Shown: positions 54,437-61,046 of the stretch, one piece after another
How the letters are laid out: the number at the start of each line of letters is the position of its first letter
How positions within the stretch are numbered: the first letter of the stretch is position 1
NCBI RefSeq assembly: GCF_006716785.1
Contig: NZ_VFPQ01000001.1
Span: forward strand, 1,364,001 to 1,428,000
DNA from: Thermopolyspora flexuosa
Lineage (GTDB): Bacteria > Actinomycetota > Actinomycetes > Streptosporangiales > Streptosporangiaceae
Reading direction: 5' to 3'
DNA: 64,000 nucleotides
Notes under the pieces: generated by a model
Database searches by the model: none
What the model saw: the letters and a program-made list of their open reading frames with translations, nothing else
Told to the model about the DNA's origin: nothing
Program-made: the position numbers and the translations under genes

Positions 54437-55579
54437 ATGGTTCCCCCGAACGGCGACGAGACCGTCCCCCTGATTCCCGCGTACGGCGAGGCGTCGCTCG
54501 CCGACCTGCCGGTGTCCGCCCTGGCGGCACTCGGTGCCGGCGGGCCGAACCCGCTGGGGCTCGCCCCGGCCCGGCGGATCTGCGTGTTCCTCGTCGACGG
54601 GCTGGGCGAGCGGCTGCTGCGTGCCCACGCCGACCTCGCACCGTTCCTGTCGGCGCATCTGGACCGCGTGCTCACCGCCGGGTTCCCCGCCACCACCTCG
54701 ACCAGCCTCGGCACCCTGGGCACCGGCATGGCGCCCGGCGAGCACGGCATGCTCGGCCTGCGCATCGCCGTGCCCGGCGAGGGGCGCATGCTGCACAGCC
54801 TGCGCTGGACCACCACGGACGGGCCGGAGATCGCCCCGGAGGACTGGCAGCCCGCGGCGACCGTCTACCAGCGGGCCGAGGCCGCCGGGATCACGCCGGT
54901 CTACATCGGACCGTCCATGTTCGAGAACAGCGGGCTCACCCGCGCGGTGTACCGCGGCGTGCGCTACGCCGGCGCGGACACCGTCGACGACCTGGTCGCC
55001 GCGGCCCGGCGCGAGCTCGCCGCCGACCGCGCCTACGTCGTGGTCTACTACGACGAGCTCGACGTGCAGGGCCACCTGGCCGGGGTGGACTCCCCCCAGT
55101 GGCGCGACCGGCTCGCCGTCGTCGACCGCATCGCCGAGCGGCTCGCCGAGGCGCTGCCCGGCGGCTCGGCGCTGTACGTCACCGCCGACCACGGCATGGT
55201 GAACGTCACCGACCGGGTCGACTTCGACCTCGTGCCCGAGCTGCAGGAGGGCGTGGCGATGCTCGGCGGGGACGCCCGGGCCCGCCAGCTGTACACCGAG
55301 CCGGGCGCGGCCCAGGCGGTGCTGGAGACCTGGCGGGCCAAGCTCGCCGGCCGGGCCTGGGTGGTCACCCGCGAGGAGGCGATCGAGTCCGGGTGGTTCG
55401 GCCCGGCGGTGCGCGGGGAATGGCTCGGGCGGATCGGCGACGTGATCGCCGTGCCGTACGGGAACTGCGCGGTGATCGCCTCCCAGCGGGAGCCGCGGGA
55501 GTCCGCGCTCGTCGGCATGCACGGCTCACTCACCGCCGACGATCAGAACATCCCGCTGGTGGAGGTGAGCACGAGATGA
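54437..55579 (+). CDS. alkaline phosphatase superfamily phosphodiesterase/nucleotide pyrophosphatase
   Basis: 380 aa. The metal-binding Asp is in FLVDGLG near residue 54, the nucleophile region in TTSTSLGTLGTGMAPGEHG, and the second metal site in YYDELDVQGH and TADHGMVNV. This places it in the type I phosphodiesterase/nucleotide pyrophosphatase family. There is no signal peptide, so it appears to be cytosolic. The substrate is unknown. Its stop overlaps the start of the rhodanese gene (ATGA), so the two are translationally coupled. Confidence 0.88.
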   Translation: MVPPNGDETVPLIPAYGEASLADLPVSALAALGAGGPNPLGLAPARRICVFLVDGLGERLLRAHADLAPFLSAHLDRVLTAGFPATTSTSLGTLGTGMAPGEHGMLGLRIAVPGEGRMLHSLRWTTTDGPEIAPEDWQPAATVYQRAEAAGITPVYIGPSMFENSGLTRAVYRGVRYAGADTVDDLVAAARRELAADRAYVVVYYDELDVQGHLAGVDSPQWRDRLAVVDRIAERLAEALPGGSALYVTADHGMVNVTDRVDFDLVPELQEGVAMLGGDARARQLYTEPGAAQAVLETWRAKLAGRAWVVTREEAIESGWFGPAVRGEWLGRIGDVIAVPYGNCAVIASQREPRESALVGMHGSLTADDQNIPLVEVSTR

Positions 55580-56388
55580 GCACCCTGATCACGCCCGCGG
55601 AGCTCGACGCCGCGCTCGGCGAGGTGACCGTGCTGGACGTGCGGTGGCGGCTCGGCGGCCCGCCGGGGGCCGAGGCGTACGCCGCGGGGCACATCCCCGG
55701 GGCGGTCTTCTGCGACATGGACCGGGATCTCGCCGCGCCGCCCGGAAAGGGCGGGCGGCACCCGCTGCCCACGGCGGAGGCGTTCCAGGAGGCGATGCGC
55801 CGTCTCGGGGTGCGCGGGTCGCGGCCGGTGGTCGTGTACGACGAGGCCGACTCGATGGCCGCGGCGCGCGCCTGGTGGACGCTGCGCTACTTCGGGCACC
55901 CCGACGTGCGGGTGCTCGACGGCGGGCTGCGCGCGTGGACCGAGGCGGGCCTGCCGGTCACCACCGAGGTGCCGCGGGTCGAGCCCGGCGACTTCACCGC
56001 GGTGCCCGGCGGCATGCCGATGCTCGACGCGGACGGCGCGGCCACGACGAAGGTCCTGCTCGACGCCCGCGCGCCCGAGCGGTACCGCGGGGAGACCGAG
56101 CCGATCGACCCGGTCGCGGGCCACATCCCCGGCGCCCGCTGCGCCCCCGCCACCGGCAACGTGGACGCCACCGGCCGCTTCCTGCCGCCGGAGGAGCTGC
56201 GCAGGCGGTTCGCGGCGTTCGGCGCGGTTCCGGGCGCGGACGTGGGCGCCTACTGCGGATCCGGGATCACCGCCGCCCACCAGGTGCTCGCGCTCCACCT
56301 CGCCGGGGTGGACGCCGCGCTGTACGTCGGGTCGTGGTCCGAGTGGATCACCGACCCGTCCCGGCCGGTCGCCACCGGCGACGAGTGA
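55576..56388 (+). CDS. sulfurtransferase (two-domain rhodanese / 3-mercaptopyruvate type)
   Basis: 270 aa with two rhodanese domains. The C-terminal catalytic loop is CGSGITA with Cys227, as in 3-mercaptopyruvate sulfurtransferases (thiosulfate enzymes have CRKGV). The conserved AGHIPGA motif occurs in each half. It moves sulfane sulfur to thiophilic acceptors in the cytosol. ATG overlaps the upstream stop; GGAGG lies within the end of the previous gene. Confidence 0.92.
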   Translation: MSTLITPAELDAALGEVTVLDVRWRLGGPPGAEAYAAGHIPGAVFCDMDRDLAAPPGKGGRHPLPTAEAFQEAMRRLGVRGSRPVVVYDEADSMAAARAWWTLRYFGHPDVRVLDGGLRAWTEAGLPVTTEVPRVEPGDFTAVPGGMPMLDADGAATTKVLLDARAPERYRGETEPIDPVAGHIPGARCAPATGNVDATGRFLPPEELRRRFAAFGAVPGADVGAYCGSGITAAHQVLALHLAGVDAALYVGSWSEWITDPSRPVATGDE

Positions 56389-56409: not shown

Positions 56410-59139
56410 TCATCCGGCGCCCGCCTCCGCCTCCGGGGTGACGGGCCAGCCCGCGCCGAGGCAGACGAAGCCCGCCACGCCCGTGGCCCCGGCCGCGGCG
56501 GCGAGCGCGGCCGCCGGGGCCGTGCCCGCGGCGAGCAGCCGGTGGAAGGCGGTCATGAGGGCGAGCGCGTCCTCGTCGCGCACCGGCACCAGGCCCGCCA
56601 CCACGCAGGCGGCGCCACGGTCGAGGAAGGTCCCGGCGAGGCCGAGCGGGGCGCCGTCCGCCGGGGCGTGCGCCAACCCGGAGTCGCAGGCCGAGAGCAC
56701 CACGAGGGCGGGGACCCGGTCGAGCCGCAGCAGGTCGTAGGCGAGCAGCGGGCCGTCGTCGAGGGCGATGCTCGACAGCAGCGGGCTGTGCGCGCAGAAC
56801 ATGCCGTGCGCGGCGATGTGCGCGACGTCCGCGGCGGCCAGCGCCTCGAGCACCGCGCCGGTGCGGGCCGGCACACGCGCCGCGCCCGGGTGGGCGCCGA
56901 GCACCGCCGCCACCTCCGCCTCGGCGTGCGCCAGGCCCGGCCCGGCGACCGCGATGACCGTGGCGGACCGGGCGGCGCCGGACGTTCCGTGCGCCGCGCA
57001 CCCGGTACGGCCGGGCACCGTGCCGTGCGCATGCCCGGCCAGGCCCGGCGCGGCGATCCCTGCACGCCCGGCTGGGCCGGACACCATGCCGTCTGCGTGC
57101 CCGGGAGGGCCGGGGACCGTGCTGTCCGCGCGTCCGGCGGCAGGGCCGGGCGCTGTGGTGTCCGGACGCCCGACCCTGTCGGGCGGCGTGTCGCCTGCGT
57201 GCCGGGCAGGGCATGGCACGGTGTTCCCGATGCGGCCGAGCGGGCCGTACGCCGCCGTGGCGGCGGAGAGCCAGGCGGCCGCGCTGGGCGCGACGCAGAC
57301 CGGGCGGCCGCGCAGCGGCGGCAGCACCGGCCAGGGCACCGTGTGCAGCGCACCTGTGGGCACGATCACCACCGGGCCGCCGGAGAGATCGAGGCCGAGC
57401 GGATCGAGCAGCAGGGCGGCGAGGGCCGCCGACTCCCGGGCGATGCCGTCCGGCGCCCCGGCGTCGTCGCGCAACGCCCTCCGGCGCAGGCAGTAGCGCA
57501 GCCGTACGGTCGCCTCCACCGCGTCCCGGTAGGAGCCGAGCCCGCGCATCGTGCAGCCGTCCCCGGTGACCACGACGGCGGCGAGGGCGTCGCCGTGCCG
57601 TACCAGCTCGACGAGGACGGCGTCGCCGAGCGCCCGGCGCAGCCGGTCGGCGGGGAACGCGCCGGGCGGTTCGCCGCGTACGCAGGCCCGCCACCGCTCC
57701 GCGCACCCGAGCACGGCCGCGGCGTCGCCGGTGTGCAGCGCCAGCTCCAGCCCGAGCGCGGCGAGCTCCTCCGCGGGGCGGGCGGCGTGCGCGCGGATCG
57801 GCGCCGGCACGTCGCGCCCGTCGACCTCGCGCAGCCCGGCGGCGACCGCGGCGAGCGCCCCGGCACGGTCACCCGCGAGGGCGCGGCGCAGCGCGACCGC
57901 GTGGTGCACGGCCAGCGCGTGCGTGCGGCCGAGCCCCGGCCGCCGTGTGGCGATCACCTCGTCGAGCAGCCGCCCGGCGGTCCGGTGGTCGCCGAGCTCG
58001 GCGGCGAGTTCGGCGGCGGTACGGCGCAGCGCGGCGTCGGCCGTGGCCCAGCCCGCGGCCCGCAGCGCGTCGGCGCAGCCGAGCACGTCGGCGAGCAGGC
58101 CGGGCGTGGCGGGCTCGAGCGCCAGCCGGGCGCGCACGATCACGTCGTCGGCGAGCGGCGTCCACGCGTGCCGTCCCTGCCCGGCGAGCTCGGCGCGGGC
58201 GAGCCGCACGGTCTGCGACGCCTGGTGCGGGTCGCCGGTGAGCAGCTCGGCCTGGGCGAGGAGGAGCCGCGCCTCGGCGAGCCGGACGAGCGCGCCCGCC
58301 GCCTCGAGCTCGGGCACGGCCGCGAGCAGCAGCGCCCGCGCCTCCCCGGGCAGCCGGGCCGCGACGAGGGCCTCGGCGAAGTCGCAGCGCAGCGCGGCGA
58401 GCCGGTCCGGACGGCCGGCCAGGCCGCGCTCGGCGGCGGCGTGGTGCGCGAACGCGGCGGGGATGTCGCCGCGCCGGGCGGCGTTGAACGACAGGCCCGC
58501 CTCGGCGAGCGCGGCGAGGTGGCCGAGCCCGGCCGCGGTGGCGAGCCGCAGGCACCCGGCGAGATCCTCCGCCCCGGCGGCGTGCTCCCCGAGGTAGGTG
58601 CGGGCCAGCCCGCGGTGGAGCAGCGCCGCGCAGCGCAGCCGCGGGTCGGCGTCCGCCCCCGGCGCGGCGAGCGCCCGGTCGCACAGCCGCGCCGCCTCGC
58701 CGTGACGGCCGAGCCGTACCAGGGCGATCGCCCGCTGTACGGCGAGCGCGGCCCGGTCCTCGGGCGGCAGGTCCCGCTCGGCCTGCCGGGCGACGCGCAG
58801 CGCCCCGGCCGGGTCGCCGAGCTCGGTGCGCACCCCTACCAGCGACATGCGCGCCTGGGCGAGCCGCCGCGGCACGCCCGCCCCCGCCCGGATCGCCCGG
58901 TGCAGGTGGCTCTCCGCCAGCCGCAGGTCGCCGAGCTCCCGCGCCGCGAGCGCCAGCGCCCGCAACGCCACGCACGCGGCCTCGGCGTTCCCCCGGGCGA
59001 GCGCCGCCTCCAGCACCCGGCGCGCCCTCCGCCGGGCGCGCCACGGGTCCGCGCCGGACTCCCGGATCGCCGCCTCCGCCGCCCGGACGAGCCCGTCGGA
59101 CGTGCCCGGCGGGGCCGGGGCGACGTGCTCGGCGACCAT
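56410..59139 (-). CDS. TPR-CHAT protease-like protein
   Basis: 909 aa. The start is the ATG after GGAGG at 6 nt. Residues ~25-500 are tetratricopeptide-type helical repeats. The CHAT (caspase HetF associated with TPRs) peptidase domain follows. The dyad is intact: His778 in HIAAHGMF and Cys818 in LSACDSGLA, 40 residues apart as usual. Between the first CHAT strands and the His lies a ~70-residue low-complexity insert of PG, GHADG and AGRAG units. CHAT proteins are caspase-like cysteine proteases that cut partner proteins when their TPR part receives a signal, as Csx29 in type III-E CRISPR systems does. It is the last of a three-gene operon with an ECF-like sigma factor and a small protein, so the sigma pathway is the likely target. 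It has no signal peptide. Confidence 0.88.
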   Translation of the reverse strand: MVAEHVAPAPPGTSDGLVRAAEAAIRESGADPWRARRRARRVLEAALARGNAEAACVALRALALAARELGDLRLAESHLHRAIRAGAGVPRRLAQARMSLVGVRTELGDPAGALRVARQAERDLPPEDRAALAVQRAIALVRLGRHGEAARLCDRALAAPGADADPRLRCAALLHRGLARTYLGEHAAGAEDLAGCLRLATAAGLGHLAALAEAGLSFNAARRGDIPAAFAHHAAAERGLAGRPDRLAALRCDFAEALVAARLPGEARALLLAAVPELEAAGALVRLAEARLLLAQAELLTGDPHQASQTVRLARAELAGQGRHAWTPLADDVIVRARLALEPATPGLLADVLGCADALRAAGWATADAALRRTAAELAAELGDHRTAGRLLDEVIATRRPGLGRTHALAVHHAVALRRALAGDRAGALAAVAAGLREVDGRDVPAPIRAHAARPAEELAALGLELALHTGDAAAVLGCAERWRACVRGEPPGAFPADRLRRALGDAVLVELVRHGDALAAVVVTGDGCTMRGLGSYRDAVEATVRLRYCLRRRALRDDAGAPDGIARESAALAALLLDPLGLDLSGGPVVIVPTGALHTVPWPVLPPLRGRPVCVAPSAAAWLSAATAAYGPLGRIGNTVPCPARHAGDTPPDRVGRPDTTAPGPAAGRADSTVPGPPGHADGMVSGPAGRAGIAAPGLAGHAHGTVPGRTGCAAHGTSGAARSATVIAVAGPGLAHAEAEVAAVLGAHPGAARVPARTGAVLEALAAADVAHIAAHGMFCAHSPLLSSIALDDGPLLAYDLLRLDRVPALVVLSACDSGLAHAPADGAPLGLAGTFLDRGAACVVAGLVPVRDEDALALMTAFHRLLAAGTAPAAALAAAAGATGVAGFVCLGAGWPVTPEAEAGAG
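56990..57240. repeat. degenerate repeat inside CHAT gene
   Basis: GC-rich units containing GTGCC and CCGGGC recur at irregular intervals and encode the low-complexity insert of the CHAT domain. The copies are divergent. Confidence 0.5.
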
Positions 59140-59219
59140 CGTGTGCCTCCAGGGGAACTTCCCGCGACGCGCCGCTCCGTGGCCCGGGCGGCCGTGCCGT
59201 ACGGCCCGGCGGCGCGCGC

Positions 59220-59693
59220 TCAGTCGTCGGCGTCGAGGCGGCGGGTGTTGATCCAGCGGGTGGCGACCACGGGCAGCCCGGTGCGGTACCAGACGACGCT
59301 GAGCCAGCCGACGGGCAGGCCGGTCGCGGCGAAGTGCCCGGTCTCGGTGGGGAAGCGGACCCACCGGTCGTGCAGGGTGCGGATCTCGACGCGGCCGGGA
59401 CCCTCGTCCCACGACCCGCCCGTCACCTGCCCGGCCACGTCGACGCGGCCCTCGGCGTGGGTGAGCTCGACGTCGATGGTGACCCCCGGCGCCTGGAACC
59501 GGTGCAGCCGGGGCTCGGCGGGGGACCGGGCGCCGACCGGGCGGGGCACGGGCACGGGATCCGCGGTGACGGCACCGGGCAGGCGCAGCGCGAACGCGGC
59601 GCGGGCCGCGGCGGACACCGCGAGCGGGGCCGGGTCCACGCCGGCGCCGAGGCGGAGCGCGGCGAGCAGGTAGGCCTCGTCGATCTCGCTCAT
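59220..59693 (-). CDS. small beta-rich protein between sigma factor and CHAT protease (candidate CHAT substrate or anti-sigma)
   Basis: 157 aa. Its ATG overlaps the stop of the sigma gene by four bases (ATGA), showing translational coupling. The N-terminal ~40 residues (EIDEAYLLAALRLGAGVDP, then AAARAAFALRLPG) are helical. The rest looks like a beta-sandwich (FQAPGVTIDVELTH, VDVAGQVTGGSW, VEIRTLHDRWVRFPT), like the carboxypeptidase-regulatory-type domains found in this position in other actinomycetes. It has no membrane helix or zinc motif of classical anti-sigmas. By position it could be bound by the sigma factor and cut by the CHAT protease. That is inference; no family function is established. 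Confidence 0.6.
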   Translation of the reverse strand: MSEIDEAYLLAALRLGAGVDPAPLAVSAAARAAFALRLPGAVTADPVPVPRPVGARSPAEPRLHRFQAPGVTIDVELTHAEGRVDVAGQVTGGSWDEGPGRVEIRTLHDRWVRFPTETGHFAATGLPVGWLSVVWYRTGLPVVATRWINTRRLDADD

Positions 59694-60223
59694 CGGTCGG
59701 CCTCCACGAGCTTGCGCAGGCGGTTCAGGCACCGGCCCCGCATCGGCCCCACGCTGCCGATCGGCATGCCGAGCCGCGCGGCGATCCTCGCGTAGCCGCT
59801 CTCGGGCGCGGTGACGAGCAGGCGCAGCAGGCTGCGGCACGGCTCGTCGAGCGCGTCGACGGCCTGCCACAGCCGCCGGGCCTCGTCGGCGGAGAGCACC
59901 GCCAGCGCCGGGTCGTCCGTGTCGGCCCGCTCGGGCTCGGGCGGGGTGTGGGTCGGGGTCACCGCGCGGCCCTTACGGCACAGCAGCAGCGCCTCGTTGC
60001 GGGTGGTGGTGACGAGCCACGCGCCGATCCGCGCGGGGTCGCGGATGCGGTCGAGGCGCTCGACGAGCCGGAGCCACGCGGCCTGGACCGCGTCGGCGGC
60101 GTCGGCCGCGCTGAGCCCGAAGGCCCGGGCGACCGCCCACATGCGGGGGCCGAACGTGGCCTCGAGCTCGTTCCACTCCGCCTGGTCGACGGGGAGCCGG
60201 GGGAGCGTGTCGTTTTCGATCAT
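59690..60223 (-). CDS. ECF-like sigma-70 family RNA polymerase sigma factor
   Basis: 177 aa. Region 2 (MWAVARAFGLSAADAADAVQ, ending IGAWLVTTTRNEAL) and region 4 (LDEPCRSLLRLL, YARIAARLGMPIGSVGPMRG) are both present, joined by a ~35-residue linker, the typical ECF length. It would redirect RNA polymerase in response to a signal. There is no adjacent classical anti-sigma with a membrane helix; the next gene in the operon is a small soluble protein, followed by a CHAT protease. The ATG has no strong ribosome site. It is divergent from the DUF3145 gene. Confidence 0.88.
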   Translation of the reverse strand: MIENDTLPRLPVDQAEWNELEATFGPRMWAVARAFGLSAADAADAVQAAWLRLVERLDRIRDPARIGAWLVTTTRNEALLLCRKGRAVTPTHTPPEPERADTDDPALAVLSADEARRLWQAVDALDEPCRSLLRLLVTAPESGYARIAARLGMPIGSVGPMRGRCLNRLRKLVEADR

Positions 60224-60551
60224 TTGTCACGGAGCGAGGTGGGAGGAAGACGCAGGGTGAACGTCGATTGAGCACTGTACCGCGACGGATTCGCCCCGGC
60301 CTCCCGTTCGGAGAATCCGTGGTTGCGCACGGTTTTCCCCGCTCACATATGGGTTGTGCTGGAATAACGCGCTTCGTATGTGACGTTTACCGACCGCTGT
60401 TGTGTCGAACTCGACACTTGTCAATTGCGATTCGATATGAACTTGGTCTGGTGCCCGCCCGCCGACGGACGGTAGTCTCTGTTCAGTCACTTGTGATCAT
60501 CTCGTGGCGAGGACGTTGGGGAAGGCGAACCTCGTCGAATCGGGAGGTCCG
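60224..60551. other. divergent regulatory region with palindromes
   Basis: This stretch is clearly less GC-rich than its surroundings. It holds TCACATATG (60343-60351) inversely repeated as CGTATGTGA (60375-60383) and the palindrome at 60402-60417. Possible -10/-35 pairs are TTGTGC (60354) with TATGTG (60377) at 17-bp spacing. TAGTCT at 60473-60478 may be a -10 box for DUF3145. Confidence 0.45.
60402..60417. promoter_or_regulatory. 16-bp palindrome, candidate operator of sigma/CHAT operon or DUF3145
   Basis: GTGTCGA-AC-TCGACAC has perfect 7-bp arms around two bases, in the AT-richer region between the divergent sigma and DUF3145 genes. It is not a LexA box (the arms do not give TCGAAC-N4-GTTCGA). 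Confidence 0.45.
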
Positions 60552-61046
60552 GTGTCTGCTCGTGGCGTGCTGTATGTCCACTCGGCCCAGCCCGCGCTGT
60601 GTCCGCATATCGAATGGGCGGTGGCGGGTGTCCTTGGCGTGCCCGTCGACCTGACGTGGACTCCTCAGCCTGCCGCGCCCGGATGCGTGCGGACCCAGGC
60701 CGAGTGGGTGGGCAAACCGGGTACGGCCGCCAGGATCACGTCATCGCTCATGGGCTGGCAACGTATCCGCTTTGAGATCACCGAGGACGCCTCACCCGGC
60801 GTGGACGGCACGAGGCATGCCTACACGCCGTCTCTCGGGCCCTTCACCGCGACCATCGGCGCGAACGGCGACATCCTGGTGCCGGAGGACCGCCTGCGCA
60901 CCACGCTGATGAGGGCCGCACAGGGGCGGGTGGTGCTGGAAAAGGAGCTCGAGCGGCTCCTCGGCAAGCCCTGGGACGAGGAGCTGGAGCCGTTCCGCTA
61001 CGCGGGCGACGGCGCTCCCGTGCGCTGGCTGCACGCGGCCGGGTAG
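60552..61046 (+). CDS. DUF3145 family protein
   Basis: 164 aa, the usual length. GTG 60552 is preceded by GGGAGG at 4 nt, and GVLYVHSAQPALCPHIEWA is the family's N-terminus. It is conserved in actinobacteria, commonly beside the fatty acid synthase genes fabD-fabH-acpP-fabF, as here. Function unknown. Cysteines in LCPHIEW and PGCVRTQ are conserved-looking. A 6-bp hairpin with a 3-nt loop (61067-61081) followed by TTCT may end the transcript. Confidence 0.9.
   Translation: MSARGVLYVHSAQPALCPHIEWAVAGVLGVPVDLTWTPQPAAPGCVRTQAEWVGKPGTAARITSSLMGWQRIRFEITEDASPGVDGTRHAYTPSLGPFTATIGANGDILVPEDRLRTTLMRAAQGRVVLEKELERLLGKPWDEELEPFRYAGDGAPVRWLHAAG

Follow-up and report, generated by a model that had tools for sequence, protein, structure and literature searches.

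How might a sigma factor be controlled when its gene is followed by those of a small, soluble-looking protein and of a protease-like one? The question is raised by a locus of Thermopolyspora flexuosa, in the stretch G000:C1:1364001-1428000 (the window, that is, the whole 64,000 nucleotides analysed; G000 is the genome that carries it). Three coupled genes on the minus strand encode a sigma factor of the extracytoplasmic function (ECF) type, a partner protein termed MID, and a tetratricopeptide repeat (TPR) protein with a CHAT domain. The answer that we tentatively favour, granting it slightly less than an even chance, is a protease-run switch, with MID holding the sigma factor and the CHAT protease releasing it; a sigma switch under protease control is plausible and has already been proposed for such loci. 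The identity of the parts is much firmer than the mechanism. Coordinates, order, strand and the four-base overlap (ATGA) between the MID start and the sigma stop are all as claimed in an earlier note on this DNA:

Minus strand, 59690..60223: ECF-type sigma factor of 177 residues (P0001), recognised by TIGR02937 and Sigma70_r2.
Minus strand, 59220..59693: MID, partner protein of 157 residues (P0002), of a family whose genes directly follow the sigma gene in 79 of 82 cases.
Minus strand, 56410..59139: TPR-CHAT protease-like protein of 909 residues (P0003), recognised by PF12770, its sequence and its AlphaFold model.

P0001 is an ECF sigma factor by its match over the cut-off of the sigma70-ECF model TIGR02937 (63.2 bits for 42.9, residues 17-171 covered); Sigma70_r2 is matched at 43.8 bits (cut-off 24, E 2.3e-11) and region 4 stays under its Pfam cut-off (12.4 versus 25.7 bits). 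P0003, whose ATG at 59139 is preceded by GGAGG, is a CHAT protein by its Pfam score (97.2 bits for PF12770, cut-off 24) and its His/Cys dyad. P0002 alone has no Pfam or NCBIfam match at E up to 1. None of the three reaches the threshold of 1.9 in the simple hydropathy scan used as the membrane-helix criterion, the values being 0.93 for the sigma factor, 1.33 for MID and 1.87, just under it, for the CHAT protein.

The linkage of these genes is conserved, and the set is therefore more than a chance assembly. Of 250 genomes in the window's taxonomic family, 173 (54 of 68 genera) gave a MID match, as did 19 of the 396 sampled across the phylum. Thirty genome loci taken first (L007-L036), used for linkage and, L007 excepted, for the MID alignment, and standing outside the counts given below, have the sigma gene in every case and the CHAT gene in 29, the sole miss (L032) falling at a contig end. 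A second set is made of 84 stretches: 60 family matches drawn from the 173 matching family genomes, 18 from the phylum sample, two from the window's own genome, three others, and the window. Gene calls were made by script, with some wrong starts and some over-extended genes; they gave 82 MID genes, L059 (CHAT only) and L108 yielding none. The sigma gene lies directly upstream on the same strand in 79 of the 82, and overlaps MID in 58 of 77 called pairs, while L066, L067 and L077, which carry a MID-like gene without sigma factor, are possibly false members. A CHAT gene lies at most three genes from MID in 71 of the 82, downstream on the same strand in 63 of these and on the opposite strand in six. 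This survey of neighbourhoods shows a conserved linkage, a point that the earlier note had put forward as a check. In the phylum-wide sample, 18 of the 19 MID-bearing genomes have CHAT, against 63 of the 377 others (Fisher p 1.2e-12, shared ancestry being ignored), the sole MID-bearing genome without it being the draft G635. Sigma factor and MID are one near-constant pair, and CHAT, often with a subtilase of family S8, goes along. No natural sigma-MID fusion was noticed in the loci read, where no dedicated search for one was made.

The TPR-CHAT protein combines a putative sensor with a protease-like part (residues are counted from the ATG at 59139):

Minus strand, 57676..59100: TPR solenoid, residues about 14-488, from the secondary structure of the model and profile TPR matches.
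Minus strand, 56494..57432: CHAT domain as delimited by Pfam PF12770, residues 570-882.
Minus strand, 56806..56808: codon of catalytic His778, kept in 67 of the 67 ungapped among 71 aligned proteins.
Minus strand, 56686..56688: codon of catalytic Cys818, kept in the same 67 of 67 ungapped of 71.
Minus strand, 56575..56577: codon of invariant Asp855, in 67 of 67 ungapped of 71, and in 35 of 35.
Minus strand, 56977..57228: disordered insert peculiar to the window protein, within the CHAT region (residues 638-721), predicted local distance difference test (pLDDT) below 50.

The intact His778/Cys818 dyad, which had been claimed for the window protein, is shared by all ungapped sequences of this alignment. 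The AlphaFold model of P0003 (35 rows, mean pLDDT 85.7) has a TPR solenoid and then a caspase-like domain. Foldseek ranks separase first (1.5e-13), followed by DdvA (4.2e-11) and Csx29 (3.6e-10). With VIA-align, the Craspase TPR-CHAT protein gives Z 28.9 (root-mean-square deviation 9.4, 534 aligned) and the Chaetomium separase protease domain 5fby gives Z 26.9 (root-mean-square deviation 3.1, 308 aligned). The predicted fold resembles those of separases and of Csx29, the latter being the protease with which the earlier note had compared the protein. By sequence profile, the best solved relative of the CHAT part is DdvA (8.6e-12), then Csx29 (2.4e-5). Of the 71 CHAT homologues, 12 exceed the hydropathy threshold; their peaks fall within the final third of the sequence and are read as buried strands of the CHAT core. 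As for the insert, positions 630-726 of P0003 hold 97 residues where 34 other aligned sequences have 5-35 and the closest relative 9; a 33-bp repeat (57065-57149) lies within it.

MID is a protein of a different kind. Its AlphaFold model (20-row alignment, mean pLDDT 76) shows helices 3-16 and 28-35 at low confidence and, at about residues 42-145, a confident beta-sandwich resembling immunoglobulin (Ig) or FN3 domains. CarboxypepD_reg is matched in 15 of the 20 aligned MIDs (best E 1.8e-5), P0002 itself not being among them, and no homologue was found by sequence in the PDB at E up to 10. The fold was tried as a clue to function and set aside, as it matches only common beta-sandwiches (Foldseek best E 0.01; VIA-align best Z 7.2). 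MID is not a classical membrane or zinc anti-sigma factor, in that it matches no anti-sigma family of Pfam or NCBIfam and its hydropathy maximum is the low value given above; the absence of a classical membrane anti-sigma, already pointed out in the earlier note, agrees with this soluble-looking protein. One residue stands out:

Minus strand, 59526..59528: codon of MID Arg56, an invariant arginine in a hypervariable loop, kept in 111 of 111 aligned MIDs.

The 111 proteins (72/72 plus 39/39) were not de-duplicated, L008 being the same as L004. The Arg56 column has zero entropy, the other columns of the loop (46-63) ranging from 1.4 to 3.1 bits, and it lies within an otherwise varying stretch of 16-63 residues. 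Because the loops contain one to eight arginines (a single one in 13 of the 111), the aligner had some choice in placing it; under three other settings the residue is kept in 111, 99 and 111 of the 111. Judging from these alignments, Arg56 may be a cut site, a contact or part of a structural salt bridge.

The relatives show a gene that the earlier note had missed and that the window locus lacks. In 49 of 82 sets (43 of 63 in the window's taxonomic family) sigma is immediately preceded by a same-strand subtilase gene, and S8-sigma-MID-CHAT is then the commonest order; the subtilase stands at another place in three further sets, and tblastn finds it anywhere in the stretch in 53 of 84. Pfam confirms S8 for L091 (3.2e-27) and L058 (1e-17). 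By simple patterns, all three catalytic motifs are kept in 40 of 52 S8 proteins, none of which (0/52) exceeds the hydropathy threshold. The window and its closest relative, L004, have no S8, and a subtilase remnant upstream of sigma was looked for and rejected (tblastn best E 0.40 in the window, 0.32 in L004). Elsewhere in the same genome subtilase is found in a paralogous cluster and in two other, weaker matches. This second cluster, likewise missed by the earlier note, at C1:1737-1743 kb (L058, G000:C1:1731000-1747000) and some 314 kb from the window locus, comprises S8-sigma-MID, a divergent TPR-CHAT gene and a protein kinase gene after MID. The genome also holds a third CHAT protein, of 1228 residues (L059, 4799-8485, G000:C1 about 5095-5098 kb), with no called sigma neighbour of the partner type. 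The window locus is a subtilase-less, minimal form of a four-part module of the kind known around ECF54, which replaces the stand-alone three-part type of the earlier note.

In seven genomes of other classes sigma-MID stands without CHAT within three genes (G367, G485, G335, G566, G432, G557, G635; G291 was left out, its sigma match not being of the partner type). In three of the seven, G367 (L157), G335 (L158) and G566 (L159), CHAT and S8 genes sit side by side in divergent orientation at another locus, the L157 pair depending on the reading of an antisense S8 match within a gene call that extends too far. G438 (L165, whose contig bears a MID lacking a neighbouring sigma) and, next to sigma-MID, G528 (L166) likewise show divergent S8 and CHAT genes. 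The divergent pairs of L158, L159, L165 and L166, all from other actinobacterial classes, suggest two cytosolic proteases acting as a pair.

How, then, would the switch run? Sigma factor and MID would be made together from their overlapping genes, and MID, we infer, would use its flexible N-terminal helices to bind the sigma factor and withhold it from promoters. An internal signal, sensed by the TPR solenoid, would unleash the separase-like protease of the CHAT protein. The protease would cut MID, the loop with the invariant Arg56 being a natural place, and so free the sigma factor to act on a putative regulon. All parts of the module, subtilase, sigma factor, small CarboxypepD_reg/Ig-like protein and TPR-CHAT protein, are apparently cytosolic. 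The observed basis is the gene set, its linkage and co-occurrence, the predicted folds, the conserved dyad and a lack of membrane segments evident by hydropathy. Such a switch is supported by the near-constant sigma-MID pair, by the co-occurrence of CHAT with MID, and by the invariance of the dyad (67/67) and of Arg56 (111/111). The split CHAT/S8 pairs (3/7) and the likeness of the P0003 model to separase, DdvA and Csx29 speak for it too, as do, by analogy, the Csx29-Csx30 precedent (excerpts of PMC10028731) and the ECF54 proposal (excerpts of PMC8999054).

To be sure, several observations weigh against this account. The full-length Foldseek fits are loose, with template modelling scores by query of 0.34-0.53 for the top separase, DdvA and Csx29 rows, and some plain TPR proteins also reach Z 27-28 with VIA-align, which makes the match to the 5fby protease domain the more telling one. 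In Pfam, NCBIfam and the PDB, nothing relates the sequence of MID to any known anti-sigma factor. Arg56 could be structural, and it is also kept in the MID of G635, where no CHAT was found in the draft genome. In separase, Asp2151 reads the P1 arginine, and is replaced by K670 in one TPR-CHAT protein (excerpts of PMC9729208). The D2151/K670 position falls on Leu859 of the window protein in an ungapped HMMER alignment to the Sb TPR-CHAT chain, and position 859 is acidic in 0 of 35 CHAT homologues, the residue of a separase-type Arg-specific protease being absent; arginine-directed cutting is therefore unsupported from the enzyme side. This counts against Arg56 as a separase-type cut site, attractive though it is from the substrate side. 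Four of the seven split genomes do not show a CHAT/S8 pair, the picture being incomplete or negative: G635 has neither protein, the CHAT gene of G485 has no S8 beside it, that of G432 lies about 3 kb past sigma with no S8 recognised, and G557 has both at the ends of different contigs. Finally, no ECF-type autoregulatory motif was found upstream of the operon. Operon-proximal sites resembling TTGAC/GTGAC...GATAC exist in some relatives, not uniformly, and the pattern used found none in the window. A noncoding block at 60330-60520, upstream of the operon, is strongly conserved in most group-A relatives, and GACTACCGTC...CACCAG is common to most of the 43 group-A upstream regions. This block was considered as promoter or autoregulatory site of the operon and discarded; it sits on the side of the divergent DUF3145 gene, of which it is probably the control region.

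The same facts may be read otherwise. MID might be an activator or adaptor, carrying the sigma factor or aiding its binding to the polymerase, and the CHAT protease would then end the response by destroying MID or sigma. A near-constant pairing says partner, not inhibitor, and the two-helix N-terminus of MID is short, classical anti-sigma domains being longer. A sigma gene followed by an overlapping partner gene is, however, the usual layout of sigma/anti-sigma pairs. Some ECF sigma factors (ECF42) do need a TPR extension for activity (excerpts of PMC8999054), but in the CASP precedent the middle protein is the inhibitor (excerpts of PMC10028731), and we consider an activating MID rather unlikely. 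It might also be that the genes are linked while working apart, the CHAT protease acting on other targets as sigma and MID regulate together. Sigma-MID can indeed lie far from CHAT, yet the co-occurrence of 18/19 against 63/377 and the downstream, same-strand CHAT in 63 of the 71 sets having it nearby leave such independence distinctly improbable. Binding, with proteolysis secondary or absent, could be the means by which the TPR-CHAT protein itself controls sigma, which may also be the case for DdvA, an anti-sigma factor that contains CHAT. DdvA (8rot/8rw5) is the best solved profile relative of the CHAT region with a high fold match, and DdvS is active once DdvA is inactivated (excerpts of PMC4374960). 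The strictly kept dyad argues against it, as do a CHAT gene sometimes on the opposite strand (6/71) or elsewhere in the genome, unlike the sigma-MID pair, and a window CHAT protein just under the membrane-helix threshold. We hold this to be even a shade less probable than independence.

A defence or cell-death module would have CHAT sensing infection and cutting several host proteins while sigma turns on defence genes. Csx29 and the caspase-ECF neighbourhoods of conflict systems (excerpts of PMC8195603) speak for it, and the PADLOC models 'BovA' and 'subtilase' match the window CHAT (5.1e-6) and the S8 of the paralogous cluster (5.7e-8), respectively. The chromosomal setting tells another story. 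The locus is framed by two marker genes that lie outside the system:

Plus strand, 60504..61046: divergent DUF3145 gene (PF11343, 1.6e-71; synteny).
Plus strand, 55576..56388: rhodanese-type sulfurtransferase gene (PF00581, 4.2e-30; synteny).

At least one marker of each flank (fatty-acid-synthesis, carboxylase or DUF3145 genes on one side; rhodanese, phosphodiesterase or DUF5998 genes on the other) is found in 49 of the 84 stretches, as in the window, and S8 is absent from 11 of these 49. No MID relative occurs in phage records or in viral contigs; the plasmid collection gave one match, in the Nonomuraea record NZ_LT559118.1, which is a chromosome judging by its 11.85 Mb. Neither sigma nor MID has a PADLOC match at E up to 0.01. 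Because chromosomal neighbours are kept in many relatives, the locus looks like a vertically inherited regulator, not a defence island; the defence option of the earlier note is disfavoured by this shared position and by the want of viral relatives, and we give it the lowest standing, as a very improbable role.

The switch, if such it is, has several neighbours among known systems. For ECF54, the carboxypeptidase, subtilase and CHAT proteins conserved in its context had led to the proposal of control by proteolysis, with no anti-sigma factor (excerpts of PMC8999054, citing Casas-Pastor 2021 and Huang 2015). Relatives of the window set fit this sigma factor with its three companions and no anti-sigma, and the CarboxypepD_reg matches suggest that MID may be the 'carboxypeptidase' of that context. 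The passages of PMC8999054 concerned do not name a small protein as inhibitor or substrate. As CHAT is present and the subtilase absent at the window locus, we call the set ECF54-like rather than ECF54, a likening by gene context that claims no group membership.

With type III-E CASP/Craspase systems the set shares a TPR-CHAT protease of similar fold with a His/Cys dyad, an ECF sigma factor and a third protein (excerpts of PMC10028731 and PMC9729208); there, Csx30 is a sigma inhibitor with a flexible loop in which Csx29 cuts it (excerpts of PMC10028731). The differences are nonetheless clear. P0003 scores 16.4 bits for the Csx29 model, whose cut-off is 300, and the 1228-residue CHAT protein fits better (37.1 bits), so that, DdvA being the best profile relative, the special kinship with Csx29 suggested by the earlier note is not shown; the two are alike in fold and in the parts around them, which does not amount to membership. 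That note's 'no Cas genes' holds genome-wide for the RAMP family (PF03787, to which Cas7-11 belongs, 0 matches in G000), other cas families not having been searched. MID has 157 residues, whereas Csx30 residues are named up to 565 in the excerpts; no similarity to Csx30 was found for MID, whose sequence has no match in NCBIfam or the PDB, and Csx30 was not seen among its fold matches either, this last being no evidence of absence.

In Myxococcus xanthus, likewise, a CHAT-bearing protein controls an ECF sigma factor, DdvS becoming active upon inactivation of its anti-sigma DdvA (PDB 8rot/8rw5; excerpts of PMC4374960). DdvA is titled a transmembrane anti-sigma factor, whereas the window CHAT protein lacks an evident membrane segment and sigma comes with a small protein of its own. 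Caspase/ECF sigma neighbourhoods occur in conflict systems; those of EACC2, caspase, ECF sigma and TPR proteins, where sigma is proposed as output, are set apart, by description, by EACC2 itself, variable sensor domains and a DUF1822 TPR protein (excerpts of PMC8195603). Separases have helical repeats and then a caspase-like domain, with the 5fby match extending over 308 residues; they are eukaryotic cohesin proteases, and their Arg-reading Asp position is not acidic in the window protein family. No experimental study of an actinobacterial sigma-MID-CHAT set was recognised among the open-licence titles listed. PMC6295645, on sigma-factor deletions in Streptomyces lividans, holds no mention of ECF54 or tetratricopeptide, and its 'chat' matches are the author name Chater.

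ECF54-type proteolytic control is a proposal drawn from gene context (excerpts of PMC8999054). To this are added here a near-constant sigma-MID pair, the pairing of S8 with CHAT in some of the distant genomes, the joint occurrence of CHAT and MID, a subtilase-less form at the same chromosomal site (11/49), the invariant Arg56 and the relation to DdvA. With its three genes, the window locus is a minimal case in which there is one suspect each for substrate, residue (Arg56) and active site (Cys818), which makes the switch directly testable. An unlikely extension would be that the ordinary chromosomal genes of Actinobacteria include an ancestor or analogue, free of CRISPR, of the Csx29/Csx30/RpoE pathway, in which a cytosolic separase-like protease would start a transcription programme by cutting a soluble sigma inhibitor of Ig fold at an invariant arginine; type III-E CRISPR systems would then have taken over a caspase-sigma switch that already existed, and the ECF54 class would use regulated cleavage without a membrane step. 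Should the switch itself prove true, sigma would be released by a soluble route of the caspase/separase type, and the CASP pathway would have a counterpart that works without CRISPR.

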